Assembly: GCA_004298545.1 (NCBI GenBank)
Contig: SCQX01000026.1
Span: forward strand, 1-48,634
Source: Candidimonas sp.
GTDB lineage: Bacteria; Pseudomonadota; Gammaproteobacteria; Burkholderiales; Burkholderiaceae_B
Direction of reading: 5' to 3'
DNA length: 48,634 nucleotides
The notes beneath the pieces were generated by a model that ran no database searches, was not told the DNA's origin, and saw only the letters and a program-made list of their open reading frames with translations. The position numbers and the translations under genes are program-made. Below are positions 1 through 45,644 of the stretch, one piece after another. How positions within the stretch are numbered: position 1 is the first letter of the stretch; every line of letters starts with the position of its first letter.

Positions 1-924
1 CTCGGCACGCTGGGCCTGATGGGGGGATTCACGCCGGCGCTGGCGGCGTACCCCGATCACCCTATAAACTTCATCGTTCCCTGGGGCGCTGGCGGTGGTG
101 CCGACCTGTTGGGTCGCACCGCGGGCAAGATCATGTCGACATCGCTGAAAGTTTCGATCCCCGTGATCAACGTGCCGGGTGCGACAGGGATGACCGGTAT
201 GACGAAGATGCTCACCGCCCCGGCTGATGGCTATACGATGGCTATCTTGATCGGTGATACGACGGCTTTGCTTACGCAGGCCGACCAGCCGTTCAAGCTG
301 AGCCAGGTGATACCGCTTGCCATCATGATTCAACAGCCGTCGGGTTACTGGGTGAGCACCAAGAGTCCGTACAAAACGTGGGACGAACTGGTTAAAGCGG
401 CCAAGCAGAAAACCACCACGGTGGCCACCCTGGGTTTTGGTAGTGCCGACGACATCACCAACCGCTATTTGAATCATAAGCTGGGCACGAAATTTGAAAC
501 CGTACCGTATTCCCATCCGGGCATGCGCTACAGCTCCATTCTTGGCGGCAATGCCGAAGTGCTGTATGAGCAGACGGGTGATGTGCGCAGTTATTTTGAT
601 GGTGGGAAGATTCGCCCCCTCATCTTCTTTTATCCGCACACGGTTGATATTCCGGTTTTTTCCAAGGTGCCTGTTTCCAAGGCATTGGGACTCGACATCA
701 CTCTGCCACAATTCCGTGCGATCGTCGTGAAGGCGGGCACGCCGCCCGACCGTGTGAAAGTGCTGGCCGACGCACTGCAAAAGGTGTCGGAAACGGCGGC
801 ATTCAAAGCTTATATCAAGCAGGAGTATGCCGACCCGCATAGCTATATCCCCATGAGCGGCGCCAAGAAATTCATGGAAGACTGGCTAGTGCAGGCCAAG
901 GCGACGATTCAGCGGAGTAAGTGA
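1..924 (+). CDS. tctC: TctC/Bug-family tripartite tricarboxylate transporter substrate-binding protein (5' truncated)
   Basis: This is the periplasmic solute-binding component of a TTT transporter. The reading frame is open to the window edge. The visible residues LGTLGLMGGFTPALAA look like the end of a signal peptide, with cleavage probably just before YPDHP, so the true start lies upstream and the internal ATG at 19 is not the start. After the signal comes the typical Bug beginning (YPDHPINFIVPWGAGGGADL), then about 285 residues of mature protein. The stop overlaps the next start (TGATG), indicating translational coupling with tctB. Bug proteins bind carboxylates such as citrate, but the substrate cannot be read from the sequence. 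The family is secure; the ligand is unknown. Confidence 0.9.
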   Translation, partial: LGTLGLMGGFTPALAAYPDHPINFIVPWGAGGGADLLGRTAGKIMSTSLKVSIPVINVPGATGMTGMTKMLTAPADGYTMAILIGDTTALLTQADQPFKLSQVIPLAIMIQQPSGYWVSTKSPYKTWDELVKAAKQKTTTVATLGFGSADDITNRYLNHKLGTKFETVPYSHPGMRYSSILGGNAEVLYEQTGDVRSYFDGGKIRPLIFFYPHTVDIPVFSKVPVSKALGLDITLPQFRAIVVKAGTPPDRVKVLADALQKVSETAAFKAYIKQEYADPHSYIPMSGAKKFMEDWLVQAKATIQRSK

Positions 925-1652
925 TGGGGTTGTCTCGCGCGAACTCCGGGCAGCGGCAGTCGCGCGTTCGCCAGGATCTCGAGAGCTCGCGTCTGGAGGC
1001 CATCCAGGCGGTTCCGGATCACCTTGCGCGGAAATCGGGTGCGCAGGATGCTGGCGCTCGCTCGGCGTCGGACGATCCGCGGCCCGAGGCGGCCTCGTCG
1101 CGGAAGAAGGCTGTCGAGATAAATCCAAGCTGGCGTGAAGCGTTGCCCTATGTGGTGTCGGCGCTTATCGCCGCCTGGCTCTATCACGTCTCCGACGGTT
1201 TCGCGGATTCGCAGATGCCCGGGCGTATAGGCCCCGACGCGTGGCCGAAGATTGCGCTGGGTCTGATGTTTTTTGTGTCATGCCTCGGGGTGGTGAAAGT
1301 GGCGCTCAAGATGCGTGGCACCTTGCCCCCCACGCGCATCAATCCCGACCGGGCCTTGTTGCATCCGCCAGAACTTTACCCTCACCTCGTGTGGACAGCC
1401 ATTGTGGCAACTGGCGTGTACATTTGGGCGTGGAACGTCTTGGGGTATTTTCTCTCCACCATTCTGTATAGCCTCTTGCTCATGTGGATAGGGCATCAGC
1501 GCCGCTCGGTGGTACTTGCGGGCTGCAGCGTCGGTTTCGCGGTGTTTTTTCTGTTTCTGTTCATGAAAGTGGTGTACGTGGCGCTGCCGCTGGGAGAAGG
1601 GCCTTTCTCCAAGGTATCGCTGGCGCTAATGTCGGTCCTGGGAATTCGCTGA
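924..1652 (+). CDS. tctB: TctB-like small membrane subunit of TTT transporter with hydrophilic N-terminal extension
   Basis: This is the small integral-membrane subunit of the tripartite tricarboxylate transporter, paired with TctA. The ATG at 924 overlaps the tctC stop; a GTG at 921 is an alternative start. The protein is about 242 residues. The first 70 or so are hydrophilic and rich in Arg, Ser, Ala and Asp. The rest holds four hydrophobic segments, beginning near EALPYVVSALIAAWLYHV, WPKIALGLMFFVSCLG, HLVWTAIVATGVYIWAW and VVLAGCSVGFAVFFLFLF. TctB proteins are usually shorter, about 150-180 residues, so the amino-terminal tail is unusual. A later start is possible, but I see no strong alternative ATG. 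Its position between tctC and tctA supports the assignment more than sequence identity does, because TctB diverges quickly. Confidence 0.82.
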   Translation: MGLSRANSGQRQSRVRQDLESSRLEAIQAVPDHLARKSGAQDAGARSASDDPRPEAASSRKKAVEINPSWREALPYVVSALIAAWLYHVSDGFADSQMPGRIGPDAWPKIALGLMFFVSCLGVVKVALKMRGTLPPTRINPDRALLHPPELYPHLVWTAIVATGVYIWAWNVLGYFLSTILYSLLLMWIGHQRRSVVLAGCSVGFAVFFLFLFMKVVYVALPLGEGPFSKVSLALMSVLGIR

Positions 1653-1653
1653 C

Positions 1654-3171
1654 ATGGATCTGCTCACCAACCTGGCGATTGGCTTCGCCCATGTTTTCCA
1701 GCCTGAAGACTTTCTCATGCTGGTGATTGGCATCCTCGTCGGCATGGCGGTTTCCATCATGCCCGGGCTGGGGTTCGTCATGGGGGTGGTACTGGCGCTG
1801 CCGTTCACCTACCACATGGGCATCGAGCCGTCCATCATTCTGCTCACGGCCATCTATTTTTCGGGTACCTACGGCGGCGCTTTCACCACGTTGCTCTACC
1901 GCATTCCAGGTGAGCCGAGCGACGTACCGCTGCTTTGGGATGGCTACGTCATGGCCAAGCGCGATGGGGCGGCCAAGCCCCTGGGCTGGGCGCTGGTGGC
2001 GGCGTTCATTGGCGGGCTGGTGTCATCCGTGGTCATGGTGGCGCTTGCCGGTCCGCTAACCGATGTGGCGTTGAAGTTTTCCTCCGAAGATTACTTCGCG
2101 GCGATTTTCTTCGGCCTCACCACCGTCGTTTCCCTTGCCGGCGATTCCCTCATCAATGCGGTGATCAGCCTGTGCATTGGCCTGCTGGTGGCAACCGTGG
2201 GCGTCGACAGCACGTATGGAACGGCGCGTTTCACTTTCGGTGTGCCGATGCTGCGCGACGGTATCGAGTTGGTGCCGATCCTGGTGGGCATGTATGGTCT
2301 GGGGGAAGTGTTCAAGCGGCTGGGCCAGGGTCTGACGCTCGATCGCGGAGATGCCGCTGGCGCCAAGGTGAAAACCTACCTGCCGAGGCTGCGCGAGATT
2401 TTCCGCATGAAGGGGGCAATCGTACGTAGTAGCGTCATTGGTACGCTGCTGGGCATTGTGCCGGGCGCGGGTGCCACCATCACGTCGTTCATCTGCTATG
2501 GCACTGAGAAGCAGTATGGCAAACGCCGCCATTTGTTGGGGACTGGTGTGCCCGAAGGCATCGTGGCGCCGCAGATTGGCTCCACCGCATCGGTGGCCGG
2601 CCACATGATGCCCATGCTTACGCTGGGGATTCCGGGTAGCGCCTCCACCGCAGTGATTCTGGCCGCGTTCCTGCTGCACGGTGTACAACCCGGACCGATG
2701 CTGCTGGAGGACCCCGCCATGAGCGTGGTGGTGTACTCGATTTTCGCATCCATGTTCGTAAGCATTGTTGGCATGTGCCTGATTGGATTCTTCTGGATCC
2801 GTATCGTAGTGAAGGTATTGAGCTTACCTCAGTCGGTGCTGAACATGGTTGTCGTGCTGTTCTGTCTCGTGGGGGCCTACGCCGCCCGCAACAGCCTGGA
2901 AGATACGTGGATGATTGTGGTTTTCGGGGCGCTGGGCTATTTGTTCGAGAAGTATGATTTCCCTATCGCGCCCCTCGTTTTGGGCGCCATTCTGGGGCCG
3001 ATAGGTGAACAGAACTTCATGCGCAGCATGATTGTGGGGCATGGCAACGTAGCGGTATTCTTTCACGAGCCGCTGAGTGCTGCGCTGATGATTCTCTCGT
3101 TCATCTCGGTGTTGTACCCATTGATCAAGAATAATCTGGCGCTATTCCGCCGTCGAACGGCGGCGGGGTGA
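1654..3171 (+). CDS. tctA: TctA-family large transmembrane subunit of tripartite tricarboxylate transporter
   Basis: This is the large permease subunit of 505 residues, the usual TctA length, made of many hydrophobic segments. Family features visible are the early glycine/proline motif SIMPGLGFVMGVVLALPF, the GTYGGAFTTLLYRIPG segment, the central IVPGAGATITSF and the LTLGIPGSASTAVILAAF block. TTT systems use secondary (ion-gradient) energy and carry no ATPase. The ATG is 1 base beyond the tctB stop, so tctCBA is one operon. It sits in the inner membrane with TctB and receives substrate from TctC. The family assignment is secure; the carboxylate transported is unknown. Confidence 0.95.
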   Translation: MDLLTNLAIGFAHVFQPEDFLMLVIGILVGMAVSIMPGLGFVMGVVLALPFTYHMGIEPSIILLTAIYFSGTYGGAFTTLLYRIPGEPSDVPLLWDGYVMAKRDGAAKPLGWALVAAFIGGLVSSVVMVALAGPLTDVALKFSSEDYFAAIFFGLTTVVSLAGDSLINAVISLCIGLLVATVGVDSTYGTARFTFGVPMLRDGIELVPILVGMYGLGEVFKRLGQGLTLDRGDAAGAKVKTYLPRLREIFRMKGAIVRSSVIGTLLGIVPGAGATITSFICYGTEKQYGKRRHLLGTGVPEGIVAPQIGSTASVAGHMMPMLTLGIPGSASTAVILAAFLLHGVQPGPMLLEDPAMSVVVYSIFASMFVSIVGMCLIGFFWIRIVVKVLSLPQSVLNMVVVLFCLVGAYAARNSLEDTWMIVVFGALGYLFEKYDFPIAPLVLGAILGPIGEQNFMRSMIVGHGNVAVFFHEPLSAALMILSFISVLYPLIKNNLALFRRRTAAG

Positions 3172-4402: not shown

Positions 4403-4513
4403 GCCACCAGTGGGCGGCGCGCAGGCTGATCGGTGCTGTTTATGTTGCAGCGCAGCGAAACGCAATCGACCCGTAAGCGAATGCGGCGGTAAAGACTGGC
4501 TTCGCGGGCTTGC

Positions 4514-4529
4514 GGAAGGGAGGAACATG
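4514..4529 (+). promoter_or_regulatory. Ribosome-binding site fixing the aidB-like start
   Basis: The purine-rich run GGAAGGGAGG at 4514-4523 sits directly before the ATG at 4527. It selects this start over an in-frame GTG at 4410, whose extra 39 residues (cysteine-rich, no family similarity that I recognise) are probably not translated. Confidence 0.6.
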
Positions 4530-6167
4530 GGCTGGACGACTCACGAGGTGGCCAATCAGGTTCCCGATCTGATTGGCTACAACCTCTACGATACAGACGC
4601 CGCCTTGCGCGAAGCGGTGAGGCGCGAGGGAGCGGGGGCCTGTGACAACGACTTGAGTCGCTACGGCGCGCGCCTGGGTGCCGAGGACGTGATGACGCTT
4701 GCGCGCCGCGCGAATCGCAACCGGCCCGAACTCGAAGCGTTCGACCGCTGTGGCCGACGCGTCGATCGGGTGCAGTTCGACCCGGCCTGGCACCAGCTCA
4801 TGGCGTATGCGTTCGAGCACGGCATGCATATCGGCGCGTGGCCCGACGGGCGCGCCGGCTGGTCAGTGGCGCGTGCCGCCTATTACCTGCTGCATGGGCA
4901 GGTCGAAGCCGGCACTTTGTGCCCCACTACGATGACGGCCGCCGCGGCGCCAGCGCTTCGCGGGGAACCGTGGTTCGATGCGCTTGCCCCTCATCTCTAT
5001 TCGCTGCGGTACGATGCGCGCGATTTGCCGCTGCCATCGAAAGACGGTATGACCATCGGCATGGGCATGACCGAAAAACAGGGGGGTTCCGATCTGCGTG
5101 CCAACACGACGCGCGCGTTTCCCGTTGGAGGGGGTGGTCGCGGCGCCGTGTTCCGGCTGATTGGCCACAAGTGGTTCTTTTCGGCTCCCACGGCCGATGC
5201 GCATTTGGTGCTGGCGCGCCACGACGATTCGCTGTCCTGCTTTTATGTACCGCGCTGGACGCCCGATGGCACGCTCAATGCCGTGCGCATCCAGCGGCTG
5301 AAAGACAAGATGGGCAATACGTCCAACGCCAGCGCCGAGGTGGAGTTTCAGGATGCGCACGCCGTTCTGGTGGGTAGCCCGGGACGCGGCATCGCCATTC
5401 TGGCCGACATGGCAATGCGCACCCGCCACGACTGCGTGCTGGGCAGCGCGGCGCTGCTGCGCCAGGCCGTGGTTCAGGCGCTTCATTATGCGCGACATCG
5501 ACAGACGTTTGGCAAGGCGTTGATCGATCACGGGCTGATGCGCCAGGTTCTGGCCGATCTCGTGCTCGAGAGCGAGGCCGCCACGGCGCTGGCGCTGCGG
5601 CTCGCGGGCGCGCTCGACGCCGGCACGTCGTCTCCGCTGGAGCATGCCTGGGTGCGCATCATGACGCCGGCGGCGAAATTCTGGGTCTGCAAGCGCACGG
5701 AGCAGGTAGTGGCCGAATGCATGGAGGTGTGGGGCGGGAATGGCTATATCGAAGATGGCCCGATGCCGCGCTTGTACCGCGAGGCGCCCGTCAATTCGAT
5801 CTGGGAAGGCTCGGGTAATATCATGTGCCTGGATGTGCTGCGCGCACTGCGCCGCGACCCCAGCGTGGGTCGTGCATTCGTCGATACGCTGGTTCACGAG
5901 GCGAGCGGCGACACGCGGCTGCGCGATCGGGCACACCGGCTGGAGGGTTTGCTGGCGGGCGCCGAGATCGAGCATGAGCCGCGGGCGCGTCATATCGTGC
6001 GCGAGGTCGTGCTGCTGACGCAGGCGGTATTGTTGCTGCGCCACGCGCCGCAGTTCGTGGCCGACGCCTTTGTGCAGGCGCGCATCGTGGCGGCGGGGGA
6101 TGTTTTCGGTGGTGGGGTGGCTATTGATGCCGCGCCGGAAATATTGGCCAGAGCCTGGCCGCTGTAG
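4527..6167 (+). CDS. aidB: AidB-type acyl-CoA dehydrogenase family protein
   Basis: This flavoprotein belongs to the acyl-CoA dehydrogenase superfamily, in the AidB branch linked in E. coli to the adaptive response to alkylating agents. It has 546 residues, close to E. coli AidB (541). The amino end TTHEVANQVPDLIGYNLYDTD is characteristic of AidB. FAD/substrate-region motifs follow: MGMTEKQGGSDLRANTT, GHKWFFSAP, the helical ARHRQTFGKAL segment and the terminal WEGSGNIMCLDVLRAL. AidB proteins bind DNA and have only weak dehydrogenase activity, so a role in isovaleryl-CoA oxidation is less likely. The gene is not next to alkA or ada here. The subfamily call is good; the physiological substrate is unknown. 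Confidence 0.88.
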   Translation: MGWTTHEVANQVPDLIGYNLYDTDAALREAVRREGAGACDNDLSRYGARLGAEDVMTLARRANRNRPELEAFDRCGRRVDRVQFDPAWHQLMAYAFEHGMHIGAWPDGRAGWSVARAAYYLLHGQVEAGTLCPTTMTAAAAPALRGEPWFDALAPHLYSLRYDARDLPLPSKDGMTIGMGMTEKQGGSDLRANTTRAFPVGGGGRGAVFRLIGHKWFFSAPTADAHLVLARHDDSLSCFYVPRWTPDGTLNAVRIQRLKDKMGNTSNASAEVEFQDAHAVLVGSPGRGIAILADMAMRTRHDCVLGSAALLRQAVVQALHYARHRQTFGKALIDHGLMRQVLADLVLESEAATALALRLAGALDAGTSSPLEHAWVRIMTPAAKFWVCKRTEQVVAECMEVWGGNGYIEDGPMPRLYREAPVNSIWEGSGNIMCLDVLRALRRDPSVGRAFVDTLVHEASGDTRLRDRAHRLEGLLAGAEIEHEPRARHIVREVVLLTQAVLLLRHAPQFVADAFVQARIVAAGDVFGGGVAIDAAPEILARAWPL

Positions 6168-8036: not shown

Positions 8037-9215
8037 TTAGCGCGATCGCCACTGGGTTGCGCAGAATGCAAGGAGCGTAGTTGCCAGATCGGGCAGGCGC
8101 CCCAGTGCGTCGGCCCGCTGTCGGCAAGCGGTGTGCCACCGCGCCCGGAGCGGCTGACGCAGCAATTGATCCAGGCGGTTGCGCAGCAGCGGCACGTCGC
8201 CCGCGTTCCAGGCGAGAATCGCGTCGGCGGCCGACGCGGGGAGATTCGCCAGCCGCAGCCAGGCCGCGAGCTTGTTCCGGTGTGTCTGCCCGCTTTGCGG
8301 GTAGATGTGCCAGATGAGGGGCTTGCCCGCCCAGGTGGCACGCACCAGCGAGTCCTCGCCGCGCACCACGTTCAGGTCGCTGCTCCACAGCAGGCGGTCG
8401 AATGCGTCCTGCGTCACGAAAGGGATAGTGCAGAGCTGCACCCGGCCGGTGGCGCGCAAGCCGGGCATCACGCCGTCCGGCATGATGACGATGGCGGCCT
8501 GGCCCAGGCCGTCCAGTGCGTCGATCAACGCTTGCGCGGGCGCGTGGCGGTAGCAGAACAGAAAAACCTGCAATGCCCCCGTGCGCAGACTTTGAATGGC
8601 GCCTGGCGGCAAGCCGGCGCCGCGCAGCAGCGACCACCTGGCGGCGGGGTCGGCCAGCCAGCGGTCACGCCGCGCGAGCAGGGCGCCTTCGCGCGGCAGT
8701 CCGCCCGTCGCCGGCGTGAAGCCGGGGAAGAAGAACGTCTTGACCATGCCGTTCGGCTGCATGGACGGGCGCGCGTGGCAACGCTCCACCCAGGTTTCGG
8801 CGCTGAGGTACTCGAGGTTTATCCACAGATAGCGCCGCTGACGTAGCCGCTCGATGAACCGATCGGGCGGGCAGCAGGCGAAGGCCTCCACGGCGACGCC
8901 GCGGGGAGCAAGATCGGGCGCCGGGTCGGCCCAGCGGACGATCTCCACACCCGCGATCGTCTGCCCGGCCGCATGCGTGTCGACGTTTGGCTGGATGCGG
9001 CGGAATGTGGCCAGGTCGTCGACCCACAGGCGCACGTCGCCGCTGCCCATGAGCGCGCGCAATTGGCGCGCGAGGCGCCAGCAGACGCCAATGTCGCCGA
9101 AATTGTCGACGACGCGGCAAAAGACGTCGATGCCGCCGAAAGCGCGTACCCCGCCGTCCGGGAATGCGACATCGGTGGAACCGTTGTCGGCGTCATCCGT
9201 CGACCCGCCGGCCAT
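8037..9215 (-). CDS. earP: EF-P arginine rhamnosyltransferase EarP
   Basis: EarP transfers rhamnose from TDP-rhamnose to Arg32 of EF-P (GT-B fold, inverting). With the ATG at 9215 the protein has 392 residues; a TTG 69 bases upstream is possible but adds only low-complexity sequence. The motif [20 protein letters not shown] contains the two aspartates (D37 and D41 here) matching catalytic D13/D17 of Pseudomonas Ear[17 protein letters not shown] carries the conserved glutamate, followed by the nucleotide-binding WHIYPQ. About 28 residues precede the core ([16 protein letters not shown]...), more than in characterised homologues. It precedes efp as a probable two-gene unit. TDP-rhamnose synthesis genes are not in the window. 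Confidence 0.95.
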
Positions 9216-9292
9216 CCGGTTGGATGGCGTATCAGGGCGGGATGGTTCGGCCAGGGGGCTCCGTGGCGGCAAGGAATTCACCAAACGGAATA

Positions 9293-10844: not shown

Positions 10845-11837
<993 letters not shown>

Positions 11838-11996
11838 GAATGATCTCCGATGAAGTGCCGATTGAGGTTGTTCGACGATGCGCTGGGTTGGATGGTTTAT
11901 ATTTCGAAAACCGCCTGGAGGCGGGCAATGGCTTTACGCAGTGTAATGCCTTTGATGCCGTGGCGGACGCCGGTCCACCGGCCGTCTTGTATTTCA

Positions 11997-12035
11997 TATA
12001 ATACCTAATACATAAGATACATGACTATTAGACAT
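11997..12035. promoter_or_regulatory. AT-rich operator-like region between mdh and gntR
   Basis: In a GC-rich genome this stretch stands out as AT-rich. It contains a TATAAT hexamer (11997-12002), two direct ATACAT repeats 9 bp apart (12008-12013 and 12017-12022), and the inverted pair CTAATA/TATTAG (12005-12010 and 12026-12031). It lies just upstream of the predicted gntR promoter and in the mdh leader/promoter zone. It is the best candidate for a binding site of the adjacent GntR regulator. No experimental consensus is available to me. Confidence 0.45.
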
Positions 12036-12057
12036 AAATTTCGCGGCGTGCGAGAAT
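12029..12057 (+). promoter_or_regulatory. Predicted promoter of the gntR-sdh operon
   Basis: A -35 hexamer TAGACA (12029-12034) and a -10 hexamer GAGAAT (12052-12057) have a 17-bp spacer, giving a start near 12064 and a leader of about 45 bases to the gntR ATG. The TATTAG arm of the upstream repeat overlaps the -35, which would suit autorepression. Confidence 0.38.
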
Positions 12058-12108
12058 AACCCTGATGCAAACCGTCATTCGCGTTCACCGCTCGTAATCG
12101 CCAGCCAC

Positions 12109-12879
12109 ATGCCTGACACCCCTTTGCCGGATCGGCCTTCAATCGTTGGACGTCGCGCGCGCAGCGCCATGTTCAGCCCCCTGTATCAACAGATCAAGGC
12201 GCTGCTGCTGCAAAGCCTCGATCGGGGGGAGTGGAAGCCGGGCGAAGCCATTCCCAGTGAATTCGAACTCGCCAGCCGCTTTCAGGTCAGTCAGGGCACG
12301 GTGCGCAAGGCGGTGGATGAACTGGCCGCCGAGAATCTTTTGCTGCGCCGTCAGGGCAAGGGTACTTTCGTCGCCACGCACAGTGAACGGCGCGTGCGCT
12401 ATCGGTTTCTCAGGCTCGCACCCGACAACGGCAAGCCGCCCGTGTCGACCAGCCGAATTCTCGATTGCCGTCATGTCCGGGCGCCGGCCGACGTTGCCCA
12501 CCTGCTCGATCTGCATCCGACCGGCCAGGCGGTCAATTTGCGCCGGGTTTTGTCGTTCAATCAGATTCCCACGGTTCTCGACGATATCTGGCTGCCCGGT
12601 TCGGTGTTCAACGGCCTGACCGCCGAATCGCTGGCGCGCTACCACGGCCCCATGTACGCGTTGTTCGAATCGGAGTTCGGCATCAGCATGGTGCGCGCCG
12701 ATGAAAAGATCAGGGCGGTGTCGGCGGCCGCCGAGCAGGCCACGCTGCTCGAGGTGGCGCCAGGCAGTCCCCTGCTGTTCGTCGAGCGCTTGTCGTACAC
12801 CTACGGAGACCGGCCAGTCGAGGTGCGCCGCGGCGCGTACGTCACCACACAATTCCATTACAGAAATAGCCTGAATTAG
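12109..12879 (+). CDS. GntR/HutC-family transcriptional regulator with UTRA domain
   Basis: This is a ligand-responsive DNA-binding protein of 256 residues. The winged helix-turn-helix occupies about residues 20-90 (YQQIKALLLQSLDRGEWKPG, then FELASRFQVSQGTVRKAVDE and RRQGKGTFVA). The UTRA effector domain fills about 105-245, ending in a region typical of HutC-type sensors (EVAPGSPLLFVERLSYTYGD). The gene stops 10 bp before sdhC, so it is the first gene of the sdh operon, and it is divergent from mdh. I infer that it regulates TCA-cycle genes in response to a small metabolite. The effector is unknown. Confidence 0.92.
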   Translation: MPDTPLPDRPSIVGRRARSAMFSPLYQQIKALLLQSLDRGEWKPGEAIPSEFELASRFQVSQGTVRKAVDELAAENLLLRRQGKGTFVATHSERRVRYRFLRLAPDNGKPPVSTSRILDCRHVRAPADVAHLLDLHPTGQAVNLRRVLSFNQIPTVLDDIWLPGSVFNGLTAESLARYHGPMYALFESEFGISMVRADEKIRAVSAAAEQATLLEVAPGSPLLFVERLSYTYGDRPVEVRRGAYVTTQFHYRNSLN

Positions 12880-12889
12880 CGAGACCATC

Positions 12890-13303
12890 ATGTCCGACAC
12901 TGTGTCGCAATCGCGTCCCCGGTACCGCAATCTCGGCTTGCCGCGGTTGCTGGGCTATCGGCTGCCGCTGGCGGGAAAATCGTCGATCATGCACCGTGTA
13001 AGCGGTGTCTTGTTACTCTTCTGCCTGCCGCTGGTGATCGTGCCGCTGTTCGCCTCCAGCGTCTCTTCGCCCGCGCGGTTCGCGCTCATGCACGCGTGGG
13101 TGGCGAATCCGTTGTGCAAGATCGTTCTGCTCGCGCTGATCTGGGCGTTCCTCCACCATTTCTGCGCCGGCATTCGCTACCTGACGCTCGATCTGCACCT
13201 GTGGGACGACAAGATCAATGCGCAGAGAACCGCTGGCGTCGTGTTCGGCGTCAGTCTGATCCTGACCGCGATTTTCGGCCTCGAACTGTTTGGAGTCTGG
13301 TGA
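12890..13303 (+). CDS. sdhC: Succinate dehydrogenase cytochrome b556 subunit
   Basis: This is a membrane anchor subunit of complex II, 137 residues, with three transmembrane helices around residues 35-55, 70-95 and 115-135. Family motifs are the amino-terminal RPRYRNLGLPRLLGYRLP, SIMHRVSGVLLLFCLPL and the heme-ligand region FLHHFCAGIRYLTLDLHL. It binds heme b and ubiquinone together with SdhD. The stop overlaps the sdhD start (TGATG), giving translational coupling. Confidence 0.95.
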   Translation: MSDTVSQSRPRYRNLGLPRLLGYRLPLAGKSSIMHRVSGVLLLFCLPLVIVPLFASSVSSPARFALMHAWVANPLCKIVLLALIWAFLHHFCAGIRYLTLDLHLWDDKINAQRTAGVVFGVSLILTAIFGLELFGVW

Positions 13304-13689: not shown

Positions 13690-15468
13690 GTGGCCGCTGT
13701 CAAAAAATCCATCCCCCACCGTCAGTTCGACGTGATTGTCGTGGGCGCCGGAGGGGCCGGCCTGCGCTGTTCGCTACAGCTTGCCCAGGCCGGTCTCACG
13801 GTGGCGGTGCTGTCGAAAGTATTCCCGACCCGTTCGCATACGGTGGCGGCGCAGGGCGGCATCAGCGCGTCGCTGTCGAACATGAGCGAGGACGACTGGC
13901 ACTGGCACATGTACGATACGATCAAGGGGTCCGACTGGCTGGGTGATCAGGACGCCATCGAGTTCATGTGCCGCGAGGCTCCCAACGTGGTTTACGAGCT
14001 CGAACACTTCGGCATGCCGTTCGACCGCAACCCCAACGGCACCATCTATCAGCGGCCTTTCGGCGGCCACACCGCCAATTTCGGCGAGAAACCCGTGCAG
14101 CGCGCCTGTGCCGCTGCCGATCGCACCGGGCATGCGCTGCTGCATACGCTTTATCAGCGCAATGTGGCGGTGCATACACAGTTTTTTGCCGAATGGATGG
14201 CGCTCGACCTTCTGCGCAACGACGCCGGCGATGTCCTGGGAGTCACGGCGCTCGAGATCGAAACCGGCGATATCTACGTGCTCGAAGCCAAGGCAACGGT
14301 GCTCGCGACCGGCGGCGCCGGGCGCATCTGGGCCGCAACCACCAATGCCTACATCAATACGGGCGACGGGCTCGGCATGGTGGCACGCGCCGGCTTGCCG
14401 CTCGAAGACATGGAATTCTGGCAGTTCCACCCCACCGGGGTGGCTGGCGCCGGGGTGCTCATCACAGAAGGCGTGCGTGGCGAAGGCGGCATTCTGCTCA
14501 ATAAAGACGGCGAGCGCTTCATGGAGCGCTATGCGCCCACGCTGAAAGATCTCGCGCCGCGCGATTTCGTATCGCGTTCCATGGATCAGGAGATCAAGGA
14601 AGGGCGGGGTTGCGGATCCGACCACGACTACATTCTGCTCAAGCTCGATCATCTGGGCGCGGCCACGATCAAGAAACGATTGCCGTCGATTCGCGAAATC
14701 GCCATCAAGTTCGCCAACGTCGACCCCATCACCGAACCCATACCCGTGGTGCCCACGATCCACTATCAGATGGGCGGCATTCCGGCCAGCCGCTACGGCC
14801 AGGTGCTCAACCACGTCAACGGCGAGGAAAAAGTGGTCAATGGCCTCTACGCCATCGGCGAATGCGCCGCCGTGTCGGTACATGGCGCCAACCGGCTGGG
14901 CACCAATTCGCTGCTCGACCTGGTCGTGTTCGGCCGCTCGGCTGGCAACCACATCGTTGCCGCACATCTCGAGCGCCAGCACCTTCATCAGCCGGTGCCG
15001 CAGTCGTCCATCGACTACTCCCTGGGCCGCGTCGATGCGCTCGAGCACCGCAAGTCCGACGAAACCGTCACGGAACTGGGTAATGCCATTCGCGCATCCA
15101 TGCAGCATCATTGCGGGGTGTTCCGTTCGCTCGATCTGCTCAACGAGGGTGTCAGCCAGATCGAGGCGCTCGCCAAGCGGGTTGCGAACGTTTCATTCAA
15201 AGACAAGTCGAAGGTATTCAATACCGCTCGCTGCGAGGCGCTTGAACTCACCAACATGATCGAGGTTGCGCGGGCCACGACGAAGTCCGCCGCCAACCGC
15301 TTCGAGAGTCGCGGCGCGCATTCGCTCAAGGAATACCCCGAGCGTGATGACAAAAACTGGTTGCGCCACACGCTCTGGTTTTCCGAGGGCGGGCGCCTCG
15401 ATTACAAGCCCGTGCACCTGAAGCCGCTATCGGTCGACAGCTTCCCGCCGAAAGCCCGCACCTTCTGA
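13690..15468 (+). CDS. sdhA: Succinate dehydrogenase flavoprotein subunit
   Basis: This catalytic subunit of complex II oxidises succinate to fumarate and passes electrons to SdhB. It has 592 residues and starts with GTG. The FAD dinucleotide fold is [18 protein letters not shown], and H50 in [12 protein letters not shown] is the covalent 8-alpha flavin site that SdhE modifies. Substrate/active-site regions visible are [41 protein letters not shown] and [19 protein letters not shown]. The carboxy-terminal arm ([21 protein letters not shown]) is typical. The order sdhCDAB is the canonical one. Confidence 0.98.
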
Positions 15469-15484: not shown

Positions 15485-16201
15485 ATGAGTCAGACACGCA
15501 CCGTCAAATTTGAAATTTACCGCTACGACCCGGAAAAAGACGAGCGGCCGTACATGCAGAAGCTCGACGTCGAGCTGGCGCCCACCGACAAAATGCTGCT
15601 CGACGCCATTTTGCGCATCAAGAACACCATCGACGACAGTCTGACGCTGCGCCGGTCGTGCCGCGAGGGTGTGTGTGGTTCCGATGCCATGAACATCAAC
15701 GGCAAAAACGGCCTGGCCTGCATCACCAATCTGCGCGAGCTCAAGGAACCCATCGTGCTGCGCCCGCTACCCGGGCTGCCGGTGGTGCGCGACCTCGTCG
15801 TGGACATGACCGACTTCTACAATCAGTATTACTCGATCAAGCCGTACCTGATCAACAGTGAGCCGCCGCCCGAGCACGAACGCCTGCAGACGCCGGAAGC
15901 GCGTGAAGAGCTCAACGGTCTGTACGAATGCATTCTGTGCGCCTGCTGCTCGACGGCATGCCCGTCGTTCTGGTGGAACCCCGACAAGTTCGTGGGTCCC
16001 GCGGGGTTGCTGCAGGCTTATCGCTTCATCGCCGACTCGCGCGACAACGCAACTGGCGAACGTCTCGACAACCTGGATGATCCCTACCGACTGTTCCGCT
16101 GCCACACCATCATGAACTGCACCGACGTCTGCCCGAAAGGGTTGAACCCGTCGCGCGCAATCGGCAAGATCAAAGAAATGCTGGCGCGCCGCGCCATCTA
16201 G
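15485..16201 (+). CDS. sdhB: Succinate dehydrogenase iron-sulfur subunit
   Basis: This subunit carries three iron-sulfur clusters linking the flavin to quinone. It has 238 residues. The [2Fe-2S] ligands are in [21 protein letters not shown] (21 residues, only the cysteines matter), the [4Fe-4S] ligands in [15 protein letters not shown], and the [3Fe-4S]/[4Fe-4S] set in [17 protein letters not shown]. The amino-terminal ferredoxin-like half begins [16 protein letters not shown]. It starts 16 bp after sdhA. Confidence 0.98.
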
Positions 16202-16511: not shown

Positions 16512-17810
16512 ATGCAACCATCAAATAAGAAAGCCACACTATCGTTTTCCGACGGCAGCCCCTCCGTCGATCTGCCGGTTTACAAAGGCACGCTCGGGCC
16601 CGATGTCGTCGACATCCGTGCGCTCTATCACGACGCGCATGTATTCATGTACGACCCGGGGTTTCTGTCCACGGCAGCGTGCCAGTCGAGCATCACATTC
16701 ATTGATGGCGAGAAAGGGCGCCTGCTCTACCGCGGCTATCCCATCGAGCAGCTCGCCAAGACCTGCGATTTCATGGATATCTGCTATCTGATTCTCAACG
16801 GCGACCTGCCCGATGCGAAACAGAAGGCGGCGTTCGATTCGCTGGTCACCCATCACACCATGGTCAACGAGCAGATGCACGTGTTTCTGCGCGGGTTCCG
16901 TCGCGATGCGCATCCCATGGCCATACTGACCGGGCTGGTCGGCGCGCTGTCGGCGTTCTATCACGACTCGACCGACATCACCAATCCGCGCCATCGCGAA
17001 GTCTCTGCCATCCGTCTCATCGCGAAGATGCCCACGCTGGTGGCGATGGCGTACAAGCACTCCATCGGCGAGCCTTACATTTACCCCAAGAACGACCTTT
17101 CCTATACCGGCAACTTCCTGCGCATGATGTTCGCCACGCCGTGCGAAGACTATCAGGTCAATGATGTGGTCGAGCGCGCGCTCGACCGCATCTTCGTGCT
17201 GCATGCCGACCACGAGCAGAATGCGTCCACGTCCACGGTGCGGCTGTGCGGGTCGTCGGGCACCAATCCTTTTGCCGCCATCGCGGCGGGGGTCGCGTGC
17301 CTGTGGGGCCCCGCCCACGGCGGCGCCAACGAGGCCTGCCTGCACATGCTCGAACAGATTCAGGCGCGCGGCGGCGTCGACAAGCTGGGCGAATTCATCA
17401 AGCAGGTGAAAGACAAGAGCTCGGGCGTGCGCCTGATGGGGTTCGGGCACCGCGTCTACAAGAATTATGACCCGCGCGCGAAGCTCATGCAGCAAACTTG
17501 CAAAGAGGTGCTTGCCGCGCTGGGCCTCGAGAACGACCCGCTGTTCAAGCTTGCCATGGCGCTGGAACACATCGCGCTGGAAGATCCGTATTTCATCGAC
17601 CGCAAGCTCTACCCCAACGTCGACTTCTATTCCGGCATCGTGCAGCGGGCCATCGGCATTCCGCGCTCGCTGTTCACGGCCATTTTCGCGCTCGCCCGCA
17701 CCGTCGGCTGGATCGCGCAATGGAACGAAATGCTGTCCGATCCGGAATACAAGATTGGCCGTCCACGCCAGTTGTACATGGGGCACGCTGTGCGTGACGT
17801 CAAGCGTTGA
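16512..17810 (+). CDS. gltA: Citrate synthase (type II, hexameric family)
   Basis: This enzyme condenses oxaloacetate and acetyl-CoA to citrate. It has 432 residues, as expected for the Gram-negative type II enzyme. The catalytic triad is H269 ([13 protein letters not shown]), H313 ([15 protein letters not shown]) and D371 (YPNVDFYSG). The start has AAGGA 8 bases upstream. It ends the gntR-sdh-gltA run; 243 bp separate it from sucA. The amino-terminal domain of type II enzymes carries allosteric NADH regulation, but this cannot be confirmed from sequence alone. Confidence 0.98.
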
Positions 17811-18053
17811 GCCCGCGTTCCGGCGCTGTGAAAAGCACTGAGGAGATCACACCAGGCGTCTGAGGGCGTGCGCTTTGTCACGTGGCAAAACGCACGCCGC
17901 GATGGTGGGCCGGGGCGGTATACTGATCGTCAATACGGCTTGTCAAGGCGCCCGTACGTTGCCTTCTGCCCCGCTATCCGCTATTCGGTCTGGCCGTGTC
18001 GCGGAAGGTTGTCCTGCATCAGAACGAGTCAAACACTCGGATAGGTGAAGCGA
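17811..18053. other. gltA-sucA intergenic region
   Basis: This 243-bp spacer has no gene. It contains a strong hairpin at 17865-17898, a TATACT hexamer (17919-17924) without a convincing -35, and a small symmetric repeat CGAGT-N5-ACTCG (18025-18039) just before the sucA ribosome-binding site. Confidence 0.6.
17865..17898 (+). repeat. Hairpin downstream of gltA
   Basis: The arms GGCGTGCG (17865-17872) and CGCACGCC (17891-17898) pair perfectly. After one C-A mismatch, TTTG (17874-17877) pairs with CAAA (17886-17889), and the loop TCACGTGG contains the palindrome CACGTG. No U-tract follows, so it is not a canonical intrinsic terminator. It may protect or attenuate the gltA mRNA. Confidence 0.5.
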
Positions 18054-20921
<2,868 letters not shown>

Positions 20922-33522: not shown

Positions 33523-35157
33523 ATGGGCACGCCATCGTCGTCAGAATCGCCTCTCTCGACAAGTGTCCCGCCAAACAGGCTGGCCGAGATCCAGGCCGAG
33601 TTCTCGCGCGAGTGGTCACGCATCGCATCCGAGGCGCAGCGTGGCGCCTTGGGGGTTCCCGACGACCGGCGGTTCGCGGCCCAGTCCTGGCTGGCGAATC
33701 CGGTGCAGTTGCTGGCCGCGCATCTCTATCTGCTTTCGGCGCGCGCCATGGCGCAAATGGTCGACGCGGCACGAATGCCCGAGGCCGCGCGCCGCCGCTT
33801 GCAGTTTTCAGCCATGCAATGGGTCGATGCCGTGTCGCCCGCGAACTTCCTGGCAACCAACCCCGACGCGTTGCGGGCGTTGATCGACAGCCAGGGGCAG
33901 ACCCTACGGCGTGGTATTGCCAATCTGTTCGGCGATCTGCGCAAAGGGCGCCTGTCGCAAACCGATGAAACGCAGTTTCGCCTGGGCGAGAACGTTGCCG
34001 TCACGCCAGGCGCGGTGGTCTTCGAGAACAAGCTGTTTCAGCTCATCCAGTATGCGCCGCTCACCCGTGAAGTGGCGCGCAAGCCGGTGGTCATCGTGCC
34101 CCCCTGTATCAACAAGTACTACATACTCGACCTCCAGCCGGCGAACTCGTTCGTGCGTTATGTGGTAGAGCGTGGCTTCACGGTGATGGTAGTGTCGTGG
34201 CGCAATCCGTTGCCGTCCGATACCGATCGGATCGATACCGCCACTTGGGGGGATTACCTCCAGGAGGGGGTGCTGCGCGCGCTCGACGTGGCCGCCTCCA
34301 TCACGAATCAGGATCAGGTCGACGCGGTCGGGTTCTGTGTTGGCGGCACGCTGCTGACATCGGCGCTGGCACTGGCGAAGGCGCGTGGCCGCGATCCGGT
34401 CGGCGCGCTCACGCTGCTGGCCACATTGCTCGACTTCAGCGACACCGGGGTACTCGACGTCTTCGTCGACGAGTCACATGCCCGCCTGCGGGACTATCAG
34501 CTCGGGCGGGGCGGGATGATGACGGCGCGTGAACTGGCGACGACCTTTTCGTTCCTGCGGCCCAACGAGCTGGTCTGGAATTACGTCGTCGGCAACTACC
34601 TCAAGGGCGAGGAGCCGCCAGCGTTCGATCTGCTCTTCTGGAATGCCGACGGCACCAATTTGCCGGGGCCGTTTTTCTGCTGGTATTTTCGCAACACGTA
34701 CCTCGAGAACCGGTTGAAGACTCCGGGCGGCGTCCAGGTCGACGGTCAGGCGATCGACTTGGGTTCCCTGAATCTGCCGGTCTATATTTTCGGCTCACGC
34801 GAAGATCATATCGTTCCCTGGCGCAGTGCTTTTGCCAGTATGAACGTTCTGCGGGGCACGATGCGCTTCGTGTTGGGGGCATCGGGCCACATCGCTGGCG
34901 TTGTCAATCCGCCCGGCAGGAAAAAGCGTCACTACTGGACGCATCCCGGGACATACACGCGGACCAATGTTCCGGCCGATGCCGACGCCTGGCTGTCGCG
35001 GGCCGATCGGCACGAGGGCAGCTGGTGGCCCGACTGGATTCGGTGGCAGGCCGCGCAAGGCAATGGACGCGTGCCGGCGCGGTCGCGGCTGGGCAATGCG
35101 CGCTACAAGCCCATCGAAAAGGCGCCGGGCCGCTACGTGAGGGTGAGGGCGGTATGA
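33523..35157 (+). CDS. phaC: Class I polyhydroxyalkanoate synthase
   Basis: This enzyme polymerises (R)-3-hydroxyacyl-CoA into PHA at the granule surface. It has 544 residues, somewhat shorter than the 589-residue Cupriavidus necator enzyme, mainly at the amino end. The alpha/beta-hydrolase triad is C272 in the lipase-like box GFCVGGTLL, D428 (GSREDHIVPW) and H456 (GASGHIAGVVNPP). Other PhaC signatures are PPCINKYYILDLQP, VSWRNP and FWNADGTNLPGPFFCWY. It heads the phaC-phaB-phaR cluster. No phaE or phaA is adjacent, which supports class I. Confidence 0.97.
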   Translation: MGTPSSSESPLSTSVPPNRLAEIQAEFSREWSRIASEAQRGALGVPDDRRFAAQSWLANPVQLLAAHLYLLSARAMAQMVDAARMPEAARRRLQFSAMQWVDAVSPANFLATNPDALRALIDSQGQTLRRGIANLFGDLRKGRLSQTDETQFRLGENVAVTPGAVVFENKLFQLIQYAPLTREVARKPVVIVPPCINKYYILDLQPANSFVRYVVERGFTVMVVSWRNPLPSDTDRIDTATWGDYLQEGVLRALDVAASITNQDQVDAVGFCVGGTLLTSALALAKARGRDPVGALTLLATLLDFSDTGVLDVFVDESHARLRDYQLGRGGMMTARELATTFSFLRPNELVWNYVVGNYLKGEEPPAFDLLFWNADGTNLPGPFFCWYFRNTYLENRLKTPGGVQVDGQAIDLGSLNLPVYIFGSREDHIVPWRSAFASMNVLRGTMRFVLGASGHIAGVVNPPGRKKRHYWTHPGTYTRTNVPADADAWLSRADRHEGSWWPDWIRWQAAQGNGRVPARSRLGNARYKPIEKAPGRYVRVRAV

Positions 35158-40102: not shown

Positions 40103-40597
40103 ATGACAGATATAGTTGCTCTGGCGCGTCAGACGCTTGCGGGCACCGACCTGGAACTGGTGGATGTCGAACGCGCGCCGCTTGGGCTGTTGCGCGTTAC
40201 GATCGATCGCCCGGAAGGGGTTCGAATCGAGGACTGCGAGCGGGTTTCGCGCCAGTTGTCGCGCGTGTTCGACGTTGAGAACATCGACTATAAGCGGTTG
40301 GAAGTCGGGTCGCCGGGGCTCGATCGCGCACTGAAGACCGAGACTGATTTCCTGCGGTTCGCGGGGCGGCGGGCAGAGGTCAAATTGCGGCAGGCGGTCG
40401 ATGGCCGTCGTGTCTTCGTGGGGTTGCTGCACGCGCCTGCGTGTGATGGCGCACCCGATGGCGCGCGGGCCGCTCCTGTATTCGGCCTCGAACTCGAGGC
40501 CGAGGGCGGGCCGGCGCGGGCGTTGCGCTTCACGTTCGCCGACGTCGAGCGGGCGCGGCTGGACCCCGTACTTGATTTCAAAGGTAAAAGGCGATGA
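40103..40597 (+). CDS. rimP: Ribosome maturation factor RimP
   Basis: This protein assists late 30S subunit assembly. It has 164 residues, with the amino-terminal alpha/beta domain ([35 protein letters not shown]), the linker [10 protein letters not shown] and an SH3-like carboxy domain (about 85-164). The carboxy domain carries an Ala/Gly/Asp-rich insertion ([13 protein letters not shown]). Its stop overlaps the nusA start (ATGA). Confidence 0.94.
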
Positions 40598-42084
40598 GTC
40601 GCGAAATTCTTCTGTTGGTCGATGCCCTGGCGCGCGAAAAAAACGTGGCGCGCGAAGTCGTGTTCGGGGCGCTTGAAAGTGCGCTGGCATCGGCAATGAA
40701 AAAGCGCTTCAAGGAAGATGCGGACGTGCGCGTCTGCGTCGATCGCGTTACCGGTGAGCACGCGGGGTTTCGCCGCTGGCTGGTCGTGCCCGACGAGGCC
40801 GGGCTGCAAGAGCCCGATCGGCAGGAATTGTTGTCCGACGCGCAAGATCTCTCACCCGGGGTTCAGGTGGGTGAATACATAGAGGAACCACTCGAGCCCG
40901 AGGAGTTCGGCCGCATTGGCGCCCAGGCGGCGAAGCAGGCCATCTTGCAGAGGATTCGCGATGCGGAGCGCGAGCAAGTGCTGGCCGATTTTCTGGAGCG
41001 GGGTGAAAACATCATTTCGGGCTCCGTCAAGCGCATGGACAAGGGGGATGCCATCCTCGAGACGGGCAAGATCGAAGCGCGCCTGCCGCGGTCCGAGATG
41101 ATACCCAAAGAAAATATCCGCATCGGCGACCGCATCCGCGCCTGGGTATTGCGCATCGACCATGCGGCGCGTGGGCAGCAGGTCATCTTGTCGCGCACCT
41201 CGCCGGAGTTCATACGCCAGCTGTTCGAGAACGAGGTGCCAGAGATCGAACAGGGTCTGCTCGAGATCAAGGCGGCCGCGCGCGACCCAGGGGTGCGCGC
41301 CAAGATTGCCGTCATCGCCTACGACAAACGCATCGACCCGATCGGTACGTGCGTGGGCATGCGGGGTTCGCGCGTGACGGCGGTGCGCAACGAGCTTGGC
41401 GGGGAACAGGTCGACATCGTTCTATGGGCCGAGGATCCGGCGGAGTTCGTCATTGGCGCCCTTGCGCCCGCGCATGTCGAATCCATTGTCGTCGATGAAG
41501 ACAGGCACGCGATGGATGTGGTCGTCGATGCCGAGAATTTGCCCAAGGCAATCGGTGCCCGCGGCCAGAACGTTCGCCTGGCGTCCGAGTTGACGGGGTG
41601 GCAGATCAACATCATGACCCCCGAAGAGAGCCAGAGCCGGCAGGAAGAAGAGCGTGGGTCTTTGCGTCAGACTTTCATCGACCGGCTCGATGTCGATGAG
41701 GAAGTCGCGGACATCCTCATCGATGAGGGGTTCACGGGGCTGGAAGAGATTGCTTACGTTCCCATGCAGGAACTTCATGCGATCGAAGCTTTCGATGAAG
41801 AAACGATCAACGAGCTGCGCACGCGCGCCCGCAATGCATTGCTGACGGAAGCCATCGCGCAGGAGGAGCGGGTGCGGAAAACCACCCCCGACCTGCTGGA
41901 GATCGAAGGCATGACCCCGGACCTTGCGGCTAAACTTGCGGAAAAGGAAATTTTCACGCGCGACGACCTGGCGGAGCTGTCCACCGACGAGTTGCTAGAG
42001 GCCACGGGCCTGGATGAAGAGAAAGCGGGCGACCTGATCATGCGCGCGCGGGCGCATTGGTTCGAAGAAAATGGCGAGGGCTGA
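40594..42084 (+). CDS. nusA: Transcription termination/antitermination factor NusA
   Basis: This RNA polymerase-associated factor modulates pausing, termination and antitermination. It has 496 residues. The amino-terminal RNAP-binding domain spans about 1-130 ([20 protein letters not shown]), the S1 domain about 135-200 ([20 protein letters not shown]), and KH1/KH2 about 230-345 ([39 protein letters not shown]). The two acidic repeats at the carboxy end (about 365-490, [19 protein letters not shown] and [18 protein letters not shown]) are the gamma-proteobacterial/beta type. It sits between rimP and infB in the usual order. Confidence 0.98.
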
Positions 42085-42153
42085 TCGCCGTGCCGCGGTC
42101 GCGCAGGGTTTTGCCCGCGATTGATAGAGTTGTAGCAAGCTAGAGAGAGTCGA

Positions 42154-45100
42154 ATGCCGAGTAATACTGTCGCCCAGTTCGCCACCGAACTGAAAATGCC
42201 TGCGAACACGCTGCTGGAGCAGTTGCGCGCGGCGGGCATCGAACTCAGGTCGGTCGACGACGCCGTCACTGACGCGGACAAGGCGAAGCTGCTTGATTCG
42301 TTGCGCCGGTCTCATGGCGGCGACGAAGGCAAGAAAATTACCCTTACCCGCCGGCAGACGTCAGAAATTCGTCAGGCCGATAGTTCCGGACGGTCGCGGA
42401 CCATTCAGATCGAGGTCCGCAAGAAGCGCGTGTTCGTCAAACGGGATCCGGCGGAAATCGTCGCCGAGGCCAAGGCTCAGGCCGCGGCGGCCGCTGCCGA
42501 GCAGGCGGCTGCCGCGCAGGCTGGCTCCCAAGTGGCGTCTGTCGGCGAAGCAGGTCGTGCGGATGCCGTCGAGGTGCCCGTCGCGCCGCCGGCGGCGTCC
42601 GATTCTCCATTGAAGCCCGAAGCGACCGCGCCGGTGGCGCCACCGGCATCCGCGCAGGGGCTGGCGCCGGAACCCGCGCAGCAACCGCAACCGGCTCCCG
42701 CGCCGGCGGCTTCCACGGCCGATGACGCCTCGTCGGCCAAGGTGGCGCCCGGGAGTGCGGCGGTGGGTTCGTCGGAAACCGTGGCCGATACGGCGCCCGC
42801 GCAATCTGCGGCGCCGGTCGACGGCAAGGTGTCGACCCCCGCACCCGTGCATGAAACGGCGCCCGACGCTGCCGCGCCGGCACCCGTCGAGTCTGCGAAA
42901 CCGGCATCTGGATCTGAACCGGTTGCTGAAACCAAGCCAGCCGCGCATGCGGCAAAGCCCGCGGCCGAGGCGGGTGGCCCTGCGAAGCCGAAAGCGGCGG
43001 CGAAGGCGCACCGCGCGACGGCGAAGGCGCGTCGCGCCACGGCCGATCCGGTGCATGAGGTCAATGACGAGCGCGAGCGCGCGCGCCATGCGGCCGAGGC
43101 CGAGGCCGCCGCGCTGCGGGCCATGCTCAGCCGGCCGCGCAAAGTACTGAAGGCGCCAGAGCCAGCGGGCCTGTCGGGAACGCTGCACAAGCCGGCGTCG
43201 GGAAAGGGCGCGGGCAAGAAAGAAGGCCCCGAGTCCAAGAAAGTCATCAAGACCGCCGATGTGTCCTCGACCTGGTCCGAAGATCGCGGCCGCAAGAAAT
43301 CGGGTACGCACCCCAACGCGCAACCGGCCAATACCAGCCGCGACGGCTGGCGGGCCGGCGCCAAGACCGGCCGTGGCGGGCGGGGCGGCCGCGGTGCGCG
43401 CGGGCGCAATGCGCAGATCGAGCACAAGGAAGCGCAGCCGGTGGAATTCATTGCGCGTGAAGTGCACGTGCCGGAAACCATCACGGTGGCCGACCTTGCG
43501 CACAAGATGTCGGTGAAGGCGGCCGAGGTCATCAAGCAGCTCATGAAGCTGGGCCAGATGGTTACCATCAACCAGGTGCTTGACCAGGAAACCGCCATGA
43601 TCGTGGTCGAAGAACTGGGGCACACGGCCGTGGCCGCCAAGCTCGACGATCCCGAGGCGTTCCTCGAAGCGGGGGATGACGCGCCGTCGGAAGCCGAAGC
43701 GTTGCCGCGCGCGCCGGTCGTGACGGTAATGGGGCATGTGGACCATGGCAAGACGTCGCTGCTGGATTACATCCGCCGCACCAAAGTTGCCTCGGGTGAG
43801 GCAGGTGGCATCACGCAGCATATTGGCGCCTACAACGTCCAGACCAGCAAGGGCCGCATCACCTTTCTCGATACGCCGGGGCATGAAGCGTTCACCGCAA
43901 TGCGCGCACGCGGAACGAAGGCAACCGACATCGTCATCCTGGTGGTGGCCGCCGACGATGGGGTCATGCCGCAAACCAAAGAGGCAATCCATCATGCCAA
44001 GGCAGCCGGAGTGCCGCTTGTCGTGGCCATCAACAAAATAGACAAACCGGAAGCCAATGCGGAACGTGTCAAGCAGGAACTGGTTGCCGAAGAAGTCGTG
44101 CCCGAGGCGTATGGCGGCGACGTGCCGTTCGTGTCGGTGTCGGCCAAAACTGGCCAGGGAATCGATGATTTGCTCGACAATGTTCTGCTGCAGGCGGAAA
44201 TCCTCGAACTGAAAGCCCCGATCGAGGCACCGGCCAAGGGCATCGTGATTGAAGCAAGGCTGGACAAGGGCCGTGGCCCCGTGGCAACGATACTCGTTCA
44301 GAGCGGTACCCTGTCGCGCGGCGATACGGTGCTGGTCGGCGCCAGCTATGGGCGTGTGCGCGCCATGCTCAACGAGAGCGGCAAACCCATCGATAGCGCA
44401 GGGCCGTCCATTCCGGTGGAAATTCAGGGACTCACCGAAGTGCCCGACGCTGGCGACGAGCTCATCGTACTGGCCGACGAGCACAAGGCGCGCGAAATTG
44501 CCTTGTTCCGCCAGGGCAAGTTCCGCGATGTCAAGCTCGCGCGTCAGCAGGCGGCCAAACTCGAATCCGTGTTCGACAAAATTGGCGAGGGCGCCCAGAC
44601 GCTGCCCCTCATCGTCAAGACCGATGTTCAGGGTTCGCAGGAAGCGCTGGTTGCCGCCCTGGTCAAGCTCTCGACCGGCGAAGTGCGCGTCGACGTGGTT
44701 CATGCCGCGGTGGGGGGCATTTCGGAAAGCGACGTCAATCTGGCCATTGCTTCGCACGCGGTCATCATCGGGTTCAATGTGCGTGCCGAGCAAAGCGCCA
44801 AGAAGCTCGCCGAGCACAACGGAATCGATCTGCGCTACTACAACATCATTTACGACGCGGTGGACGACGTGCGCAACGCCATGTCCGGCATGCTGGCGCC
44901 CGAGAAGAAAGAGGAAATCATCGGGCTGGTCGAAATTCGCGAGATATTCAATGTGTCGCGCGTGGGCAATATCGCGGGCTGCATGGTGCTGGACGGCGCG
45001 GTGCGCCGTGATGCGCAGGCGCGGTTGCTGCGTGACAATGTCGTGCAATGGACAGGTACGCTCGACTCCCTGCGCCGCTTCAAGGATGACGTCAAAGAGG

Positions 45101-45207: not shown

Positions 45208-45209
45208 CT

Positions 45210-45620: not shown

Positions 45621-45644
45621 GCCATCGAATTTCGGAACCGAACG

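Follow-up and report, generated by a model that had tools for sequence, protein, structure and literature searches.

In the window, that is, the whole 48.6-kb stretch of DNA that was analysed, the malate dehydrogenase gene mdh (10845..11837, minus strand; NF003916 and TIGR01759, above cut-off) lies divergent from gntR (12109..12879, plus strand). The latter is an sdhR-like gene whose product joins a GntR winged helix-turn-helix to a UTRA domain, HutC subfamily (PF00392, 73.9 bits; PF07702, 107.1 bits). On the plus strand follow sdhC (12890..13303; TIGR02970), sdhA (13690..15468; TIGR01816), sdhB (15485..16201; PF13085, NF004616), the citrate synthase gene gltA (16512..17810; TIGR01798) and odhA/sucA, encoding 2-oxoglutarate dehydrogenase E1 (18045..20921; TIGR00239). 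The order gntR, sdhC, sdhA, sdhB, gltA, odhA bears out the initial annotation, which had placed gntR opposite mdh and at the head of the sdh row; the gene that it named sucA is odhA, in this same row. Among 29 other loci, mdh accompanies gntR in 26 and sdhC in 28, so that gntR sits between divergent mdh and sdhC there as it does in the window. Other window content is ordinary: TctC/TctA transporter parts (19-3171), an AidB-like acyl-CoA dehydrogenase (4410-6167), EarP (8037-9284), PhaC (33523-35157) and a nusA-infB-truB-bipA row (40594-48217).

The AT-rich patch between the two genes had been read as a control region common to mdh and gntR-sdh, and this reading held. The gntR-sdh promoter (12029..12057, plus strand) was present as described, with the -35 element TAGACA at 12029-12034, a 17-nt spacer and the -10 element GAGAAT at 12052-12057. 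It was recognised by its match to the consensus, and conservation supports it as a promoter: T[AC]GACA-17-G[ACG][ACG]AAT was found in 39/124 other distinct mdh/gntR intervals, or 40/125 with the window included. On the minus strand, a possible mdh promoter (11998..12027; TAGTCA 12022-12027, 18-nt spacer, TATTAT 11998-12003) is a consensus match only and falls within the ladder of half-sites described below. The mdh-side GTCAA (TTGAC on the other strand), which 105/124 relatives carry, is missing from the window's interval. Both strands of the region gave 2 promoter-like matches, versus 0.5 +/- 0.8 in shuffles. Directly left of the ladder, at 11969-11984, stands a short GC-rich hairpin with a T-rich tail (2 found; shuffles 0.2 +/- 0.4), which could be a transcription terminator or a product of chance. 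Single-stranded structure over the ladder itself was considered and rejected, with z values of 0.09 (11985-12030) and -1.81 (11960-12060).

The initial annotation had taken ATACAT direct repeats and a CTAATA/TATTAG inverted pair to be the operator. These repeats are correctly placed and adjoin the promoter: the two ATACAT copies start 9 bp from each other (12008, 12017), and CTAATA and TATTAG start at 12005 and 12026. In the 3.19-Mb draft genome, ATACAT-N3-ATACAT occurs a single time. However, when 11997-12057 was shuffled 5000 times with its dinucleotides preserved, 22.5% of the shuffles contained a direct repeat of 6 bp within 20 nt, 34.1% an inverted pair of 6 bp within 35 nt, and 9.3% both, so that the named repeats are by themselves weightless. 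Moreover, neither ATACAT-N3-ATACAT nor CTAATA...TATTAG was found in any of the 124 other distinct mdh/gntR intervals, an absence that the initial annotation had itself named as refuting, and TATTAG is there because it overlaps a conserved stretch 5' of the -35. That these repeats are the operator itself is hardly credible.

A different element was apparent from the orthologous loci. With the GntR protein as query, 32 of 41 genomes matched at 1e-40 and 242 of 268 genomes of the family at 1e-60, loci of the latter being taken from the best 30; a named genome collection gave 79 loci. This gave 133 loci including the window; four with a partial gntR were set aside, leaving 128 others plus the window, that is, 129. 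The named relatives belong to Paralcaligenes, Candidimonas, Castellaniella, Achromobacter and other Burkholderiales. The nearest relative shows 78% identity, and no second genome of the window's genus was found among the genomes searched for GntR. In the mdh/gntR interval, TCTTATATAAGA was exact in 120/128 orthologous loci and one base off in 7/128. The remaining one, L102 (L102:1-60), lies at a contig edge with no mdh within reach and has no near-canonical site. Some loci represent the same genome in two collections; the distinct contexts number 124 others, 116 of them exact. In the window interval the best fit to this palindrome had 3 mismatches of 12, and the genome holds no exact copy.

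This palindrome belongs to a regulator already known in print. PMC4494728 gives the motif of SdhR (GntR/HutC) as a palindrome with additional symmetry, TCTTATGTCTTATATAAGACATAAGA. A canonical fragment carries TCTTATATCTTATATAAGACATAAGA. Canonical SdhR would read a ladder of 7-bp half-sites, TCTTATA TCTTATA / TAAGACA TAAGA, the inner pair of which makes up TCTTATATAAGA. The number of units does vary in 7-bp steps among relatives, on the acnB and gntR sides. Ahead of acnB, the -35 lies 10, 17 or 24 bp from the site centre in 2, 8 and 2 of 12 relatives, respectively. On the gntR side, a -35-like TNGACA was found in 56 of 123 intervals and not found in 67, with distances of 18 bp (36), 17 bp (14), 11 bp (5) and 24 bp (1); 50 of the 56 are thus at 17 or 18 bp. 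The mdh-side TTGAC was found at 17 bp in 43, 18 bp in 31 and 20 bp in 13 of 123 contexts, was lacking in 18 and scattered in the rest, and its main distances (17, 18, 20 bp) are out of step with the 7-bp spacing. For the icd and aceA sites, no steady promoter distance was found among relatives.

The regulator itself is unaltered in the window. The recognition helix VSQGTVRKA was found in 129/129 proteins, the window's included and the orthologues with TCTTATATAAGA intervals alike, which ruled out a changed helix. The wing RRQGKGTFVATH is present in 112/129, again including the window. A decaying regulator was ruled out likewise, as the window GntR breaks 0/64 near-invariant positions (124 distinct proteins; median also 0). 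With VSQGTVRKA and the near-invariant positions intact, the DNA specificity of the window GntR should match that of its relatives. The same genome (G000) encodes a second HutC-like GntR (C111:15988-16671), with 37% identity to the window GntR.

We then describe the window's own site by means of a position weight matrix (PWM) of 26 columns, built from 123 distinct contexts and run over both strands of the window. The best SdhR-like site starts at 11985 and scores 18.2. The six top scores (18.2, 9.7, 8.0, 5.4, 4.8, 0.8) all fall within 11985-12024, in 7-bp steps. The next-best score anywhere in the window is -6.8, at 801, and a canonical site relocated elsewhere in the window was rejected on this ground. 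Training sites scored between 14.7 and 53.3 with a median of 47.9, so that 18.2 is far below the median and above the lowest. The patch 11997-12057 of the initial annotation did contain a real site; the element starts 12 bases before it, so that its left part falls outside.

Six 7-bp units can be read on the plus strand; against whichever half-site is nearer, they have 1, 2, 2, 1, 1 and 3 mismatches. Unit 1, TCTTGTA (11985..11991; PWM and genome pattern search), is the outer left half-site, one mismatch away from TCTTATA, and unit 2, TTTCATA (11992..11998; PWM), the inner left half-site with two mismatches to it. Units 3 (TAATACC, 11999..12005; PWM, 14-bp deletion scan) and 4 (TAATACA, 12006..12012; PWM, deletion scan) are extra units, two mismatches and one mismatch away from TAAGACA. 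Unit 5, TAAGATA (12013..12019; PWM), is the inner right half-site with TAAGA intact, and the T at its sixth base is likewise seen in 33/123 relatives. Unit 6, CATGACT (12020..12026; PWM), is a worn outer right half-site, three mismatches from TAAGACA. Units 1 and 5, and perhaps 6, keep the guanine pair of the half-site; it is gone from units 2, 3 and 4. In the GntR/HutC regulator NagR of B. subtilis, which reads both half-sites of its dre-sites as a dimer, the guanines of each half-site make specific contacts (PMC4333415). Losing this pair from units 2-4 would be expected to weaken SdhR binding, and a loss of binding is uncertain; native NagR sites are imperfect palindromes and are still tightly bound (PMC4333415).

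The units do not fit a single register. Placing the core at 11992-12003 gives a good left arm and a -35 that is 32 bp away from the centre, which exceeds the commonest distance of 18 bp by 14. Placing it at 12006-12017 gives an exact right arm and the 18-bp distance to the -35, and leaves no left arm. Reading the arms from two registers would most simply be accounted for, as modelled here, by an insertion of two units (14 bp) between them. The real patch scored 18.2 intact and 31.3 with the best single deletion, which was of 14 bp; in 150 shuffles of the patch the top scores were 2.3 intact and, when up to 20 bp could be deleted, 14.8. Removing exactly units 3 and 4 gave 28.1, and a 7-bp deletion 25.7. 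A 29-bp deletion scored 30.7 versus 31.3 for the 14-bp one; it is no multiple of 7 and is not predicted by the unit model. Alternatively, the left arm may have been replaced gaplessly (core 12006-12017), with no insertion. The 29-bp score and this gapless alignment count against a bolder scenario, in which SdhR moved from a tight palindrome to a six-unit ladder with arms 14 bp apart and several protomers side by side, the regulon shrank to mdh/sdh and perhaps glcB, and the mdh promoter moved into the ladder. We regard this scenario as unlikely.

A possibility was that the protein contacts and the site had changed together, TAATAC-type units being the new half-site. The tandem of TAATAC (11999 and 12006) does look as if a unit had been copied. 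On the other hand, the regulator keeps the helix and wing of its relatives, TAATAC-N-TAATAC occurs in 0/124 relatives, and the genome has no second zero-mismatch ladder: the two-left-unit pattern TCTTRTATYTYATATAA matches without mismatch only at 11985. Its genome matches number 10 in total versus 7 for the reversed pattern, the other nine having 3 mismatches and one of these lying inside the ladder. Such a new specificity seems very unlikely. A local sequence error could likewise make a canonical site disappear, and this single contig of a draft may contain one. Of the 129 loci whose gntR start could be read, only the window's and that of L102, at its contig edge, have no near-exact site, and the draft is fragmented (339 contigs, 4.8% contamination). 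But the differences are many, in register and not of the homopolymer type, and the promoter and the flanking genes on both sides are intact; that the true sequence is canonical seems quite improbable.

Taken together, the patch very likely is the orthologue of the SdhR operator that Burkholderiales-type relatives have between mdh and gntR-sdh, in degenerate form, and a putative binding site. The fuller reading, of a degenerate variant expanded by whole units, is predicted from sequence comparison and is likely too. The patch does not qualify as a canonical operator, given its lost palindrome and the regulon genes not found in its own genome; descent from the SdhR operator holds, and the mode of working is probably the same.

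The regulon was best seen in relatives. Across 12 near relatives, the exact motif occurs in 43 copies, versus 3 for the reversed pattern, and 43/43 lie at mdh/gntR-sdh, acnB, icd, aceA, glcB or a second icd. Eleven are in the mdh/gntR interval; the other 32 stand within 500 bp upstream of regulon genes, namely acnB (12), icd (10), aceA (8), glcB (1) and a second, monomeric-type icd (1). In these 12 relatives, a single SdhR-type regulator probably coordinates mdh, sdh, acnB, icd, aceA and glcB. The icd sites adjoin a divergent DUF1841 gene in 10/10 cases, and the aceA sites a divergent queF in 7/8 (L149, L151 and similar loci). In G019 (L157, near 1989), a type I icd and a monomeric icd stand side by side, in this order, and the motif precedes the monomeric one, so that one of the pair has a site. 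The SdhR regulon is presumably the one reportedly described by Suvorova, Ravcheev and Gelfand in 2012 (J Bacteriol 194:3234).

In the window's own draft genome (3.19 Mb, 339 contigs, 96.92% complete, 4.8% contamination, so that genes could sit in gaps) the picture was different. No exact canonical site was found in it, and places with up to 2 mismatches number 11 versus 23 for the reversed pattern; judged by eye from the flanking frames, only the match at glcB adjoins a regulon gene, and canonical sites elsewhere in the genome were rejected. The genes acnB, icd and aceA, which carry the site in the 12 relatives, were themselves not found. Queries for acnB, aceA and monomeric icd had no match in this 97%-complete draft. 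The type I icd query gave weak matches only, one being a tartrate dehydrogenase and another, next to a LeuC-like gene, being probably leuB. Since the acnB, icd and aceA queries match at 86% and more among the relatives themselves, a true orthologue would have matched. Along with acnA, this draft has gltA, sdh and odhA, that is, an oxidative branch of the TCA cycle with no isocitrate dehydrogenase in sight, although one could sit in a gap of the assembly. The tartrate dehydrogenase gene (TIGR02089; 9243-10370) and acnA (209-2902) share one contig, L177.

The initial annotation had proposed a single regulator for several TCA-cycle enzymes, with the same repeats to be sought upstream of acn, icd, sucA and fum. 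For the 12 relatives the general idea stood. In the window's genome, acnA had no SdhR-type site nearby (best core match 4 mismatches), and acnB and both kinds of icd were not found. With no exact canonical site, with acnB, aceA and icd not found and with an acnA that has no site, wide coordination is doubtful here, and the regulon looks shrunken as far as the sequence tells. The gene glcB retains a one-mismatch site, TCATATATAAGA, 261 bp before its start on contig C339, with the same letters as in relative G094; it has no outer half-sites and scores -4.0 in the PWM. We rejected glcB as a general member of the regulon, because a site with up to 2 mismatches was present in only 6/24 genomes, G000 included.

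This raised the question of whether the operator has lost its function altogether, its site drifting with no constraint after the regulon shrank with the absence of acnB, icd and aceA. Several observations point that way, namely the genome free of exact canonical sites, the failure to find acnB, aceA and the two kinds of icd, the relatives' mdh -35 that is missing here, and the half-site G/C gone from the central units. Against it, gntR is unrelaxed, with none of its 64 near-invariant positions broken, the ladder still scores far above every shuffle, and the glcB site preserves the letters of G094, although its PWM score is -4.0. We find loss of function somewhat unlikely, and we lean slightly towards SdhR still controlling both the gntR-sdh and the mdh promoters in this genome.

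The preferred reading, a degenerate and unit-expanded SdhR operator, suggests how the site may work. Two left units, both worn, and a single intact right unit are kept, with the right-like TAATACC TAATACA in between, so that on this reading the inner palindrome is pulled 14 bp apart; the recognised G/C pairs are gone from units 2 to 4. The ladder stops directly 5' of the gntR-sdh -35, and bound SdhR would hinder RNA polymerase at this promoter and at the mdh promoter opposite, until a ligand binding its UTRA domain sets it free. By inspection, the acnB unit nearest the -35 abuts it at every unit number. We infer that abutment whatever the number of units fits hindrance of RNA polymerase better than activation from a fixed helical phase.

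Compared with the SdhR operator TCTTATGTCTTATATAAGACATAAGA of PMC4494728, the window site has in common its place between mdh and gntR-sdh, its half-site letters and, apparently, the 7-bp spacing, and its GntR has the recognition helix of the SdhR orthologues. It differs in the lost inner palindrome, in the two extra right-like units of the best model and in a score of 18.2 versus a median of 47.9. The dre-sites of NagR differ further, having other half-site letters and no 7-bp ladder in the parts of PMC4333415 that deal with them. Additional, weaker half-sites 7-12 nt off are on record beside GntR-family palindromes (PMC4494728); these flank an intact palindrome, whereas the extra units of the window apparently stand between the arms. 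In literature searches that bore on degenerate sites only in small part, no report of a degenerate SdhR site was found among the papers listed, and among these SdhR with its motif appeared only in PMC4494728 (Suvorova, Korostelev and Gelfand 2015), which credits SdhR to a 2012 paper.

Exact in 120/128 loci across many genera, the SdhR operator is among the steadiest of regulatory sites. A single lineage in which an unaltered regulator faces a broken site offers a natural experiment, both on the minimum that a GntR operator requires and on the growth of an operator in 7-bp steps. The 43 sites in 12 relatives offer a ready target list for one regulator of the TCA and glyoxylate genes. If the bolder scenario of a six-unit ladder is true, the operator was rebuilt while its regulator stayed the same, which would show how such sites grow by whole half-site units.
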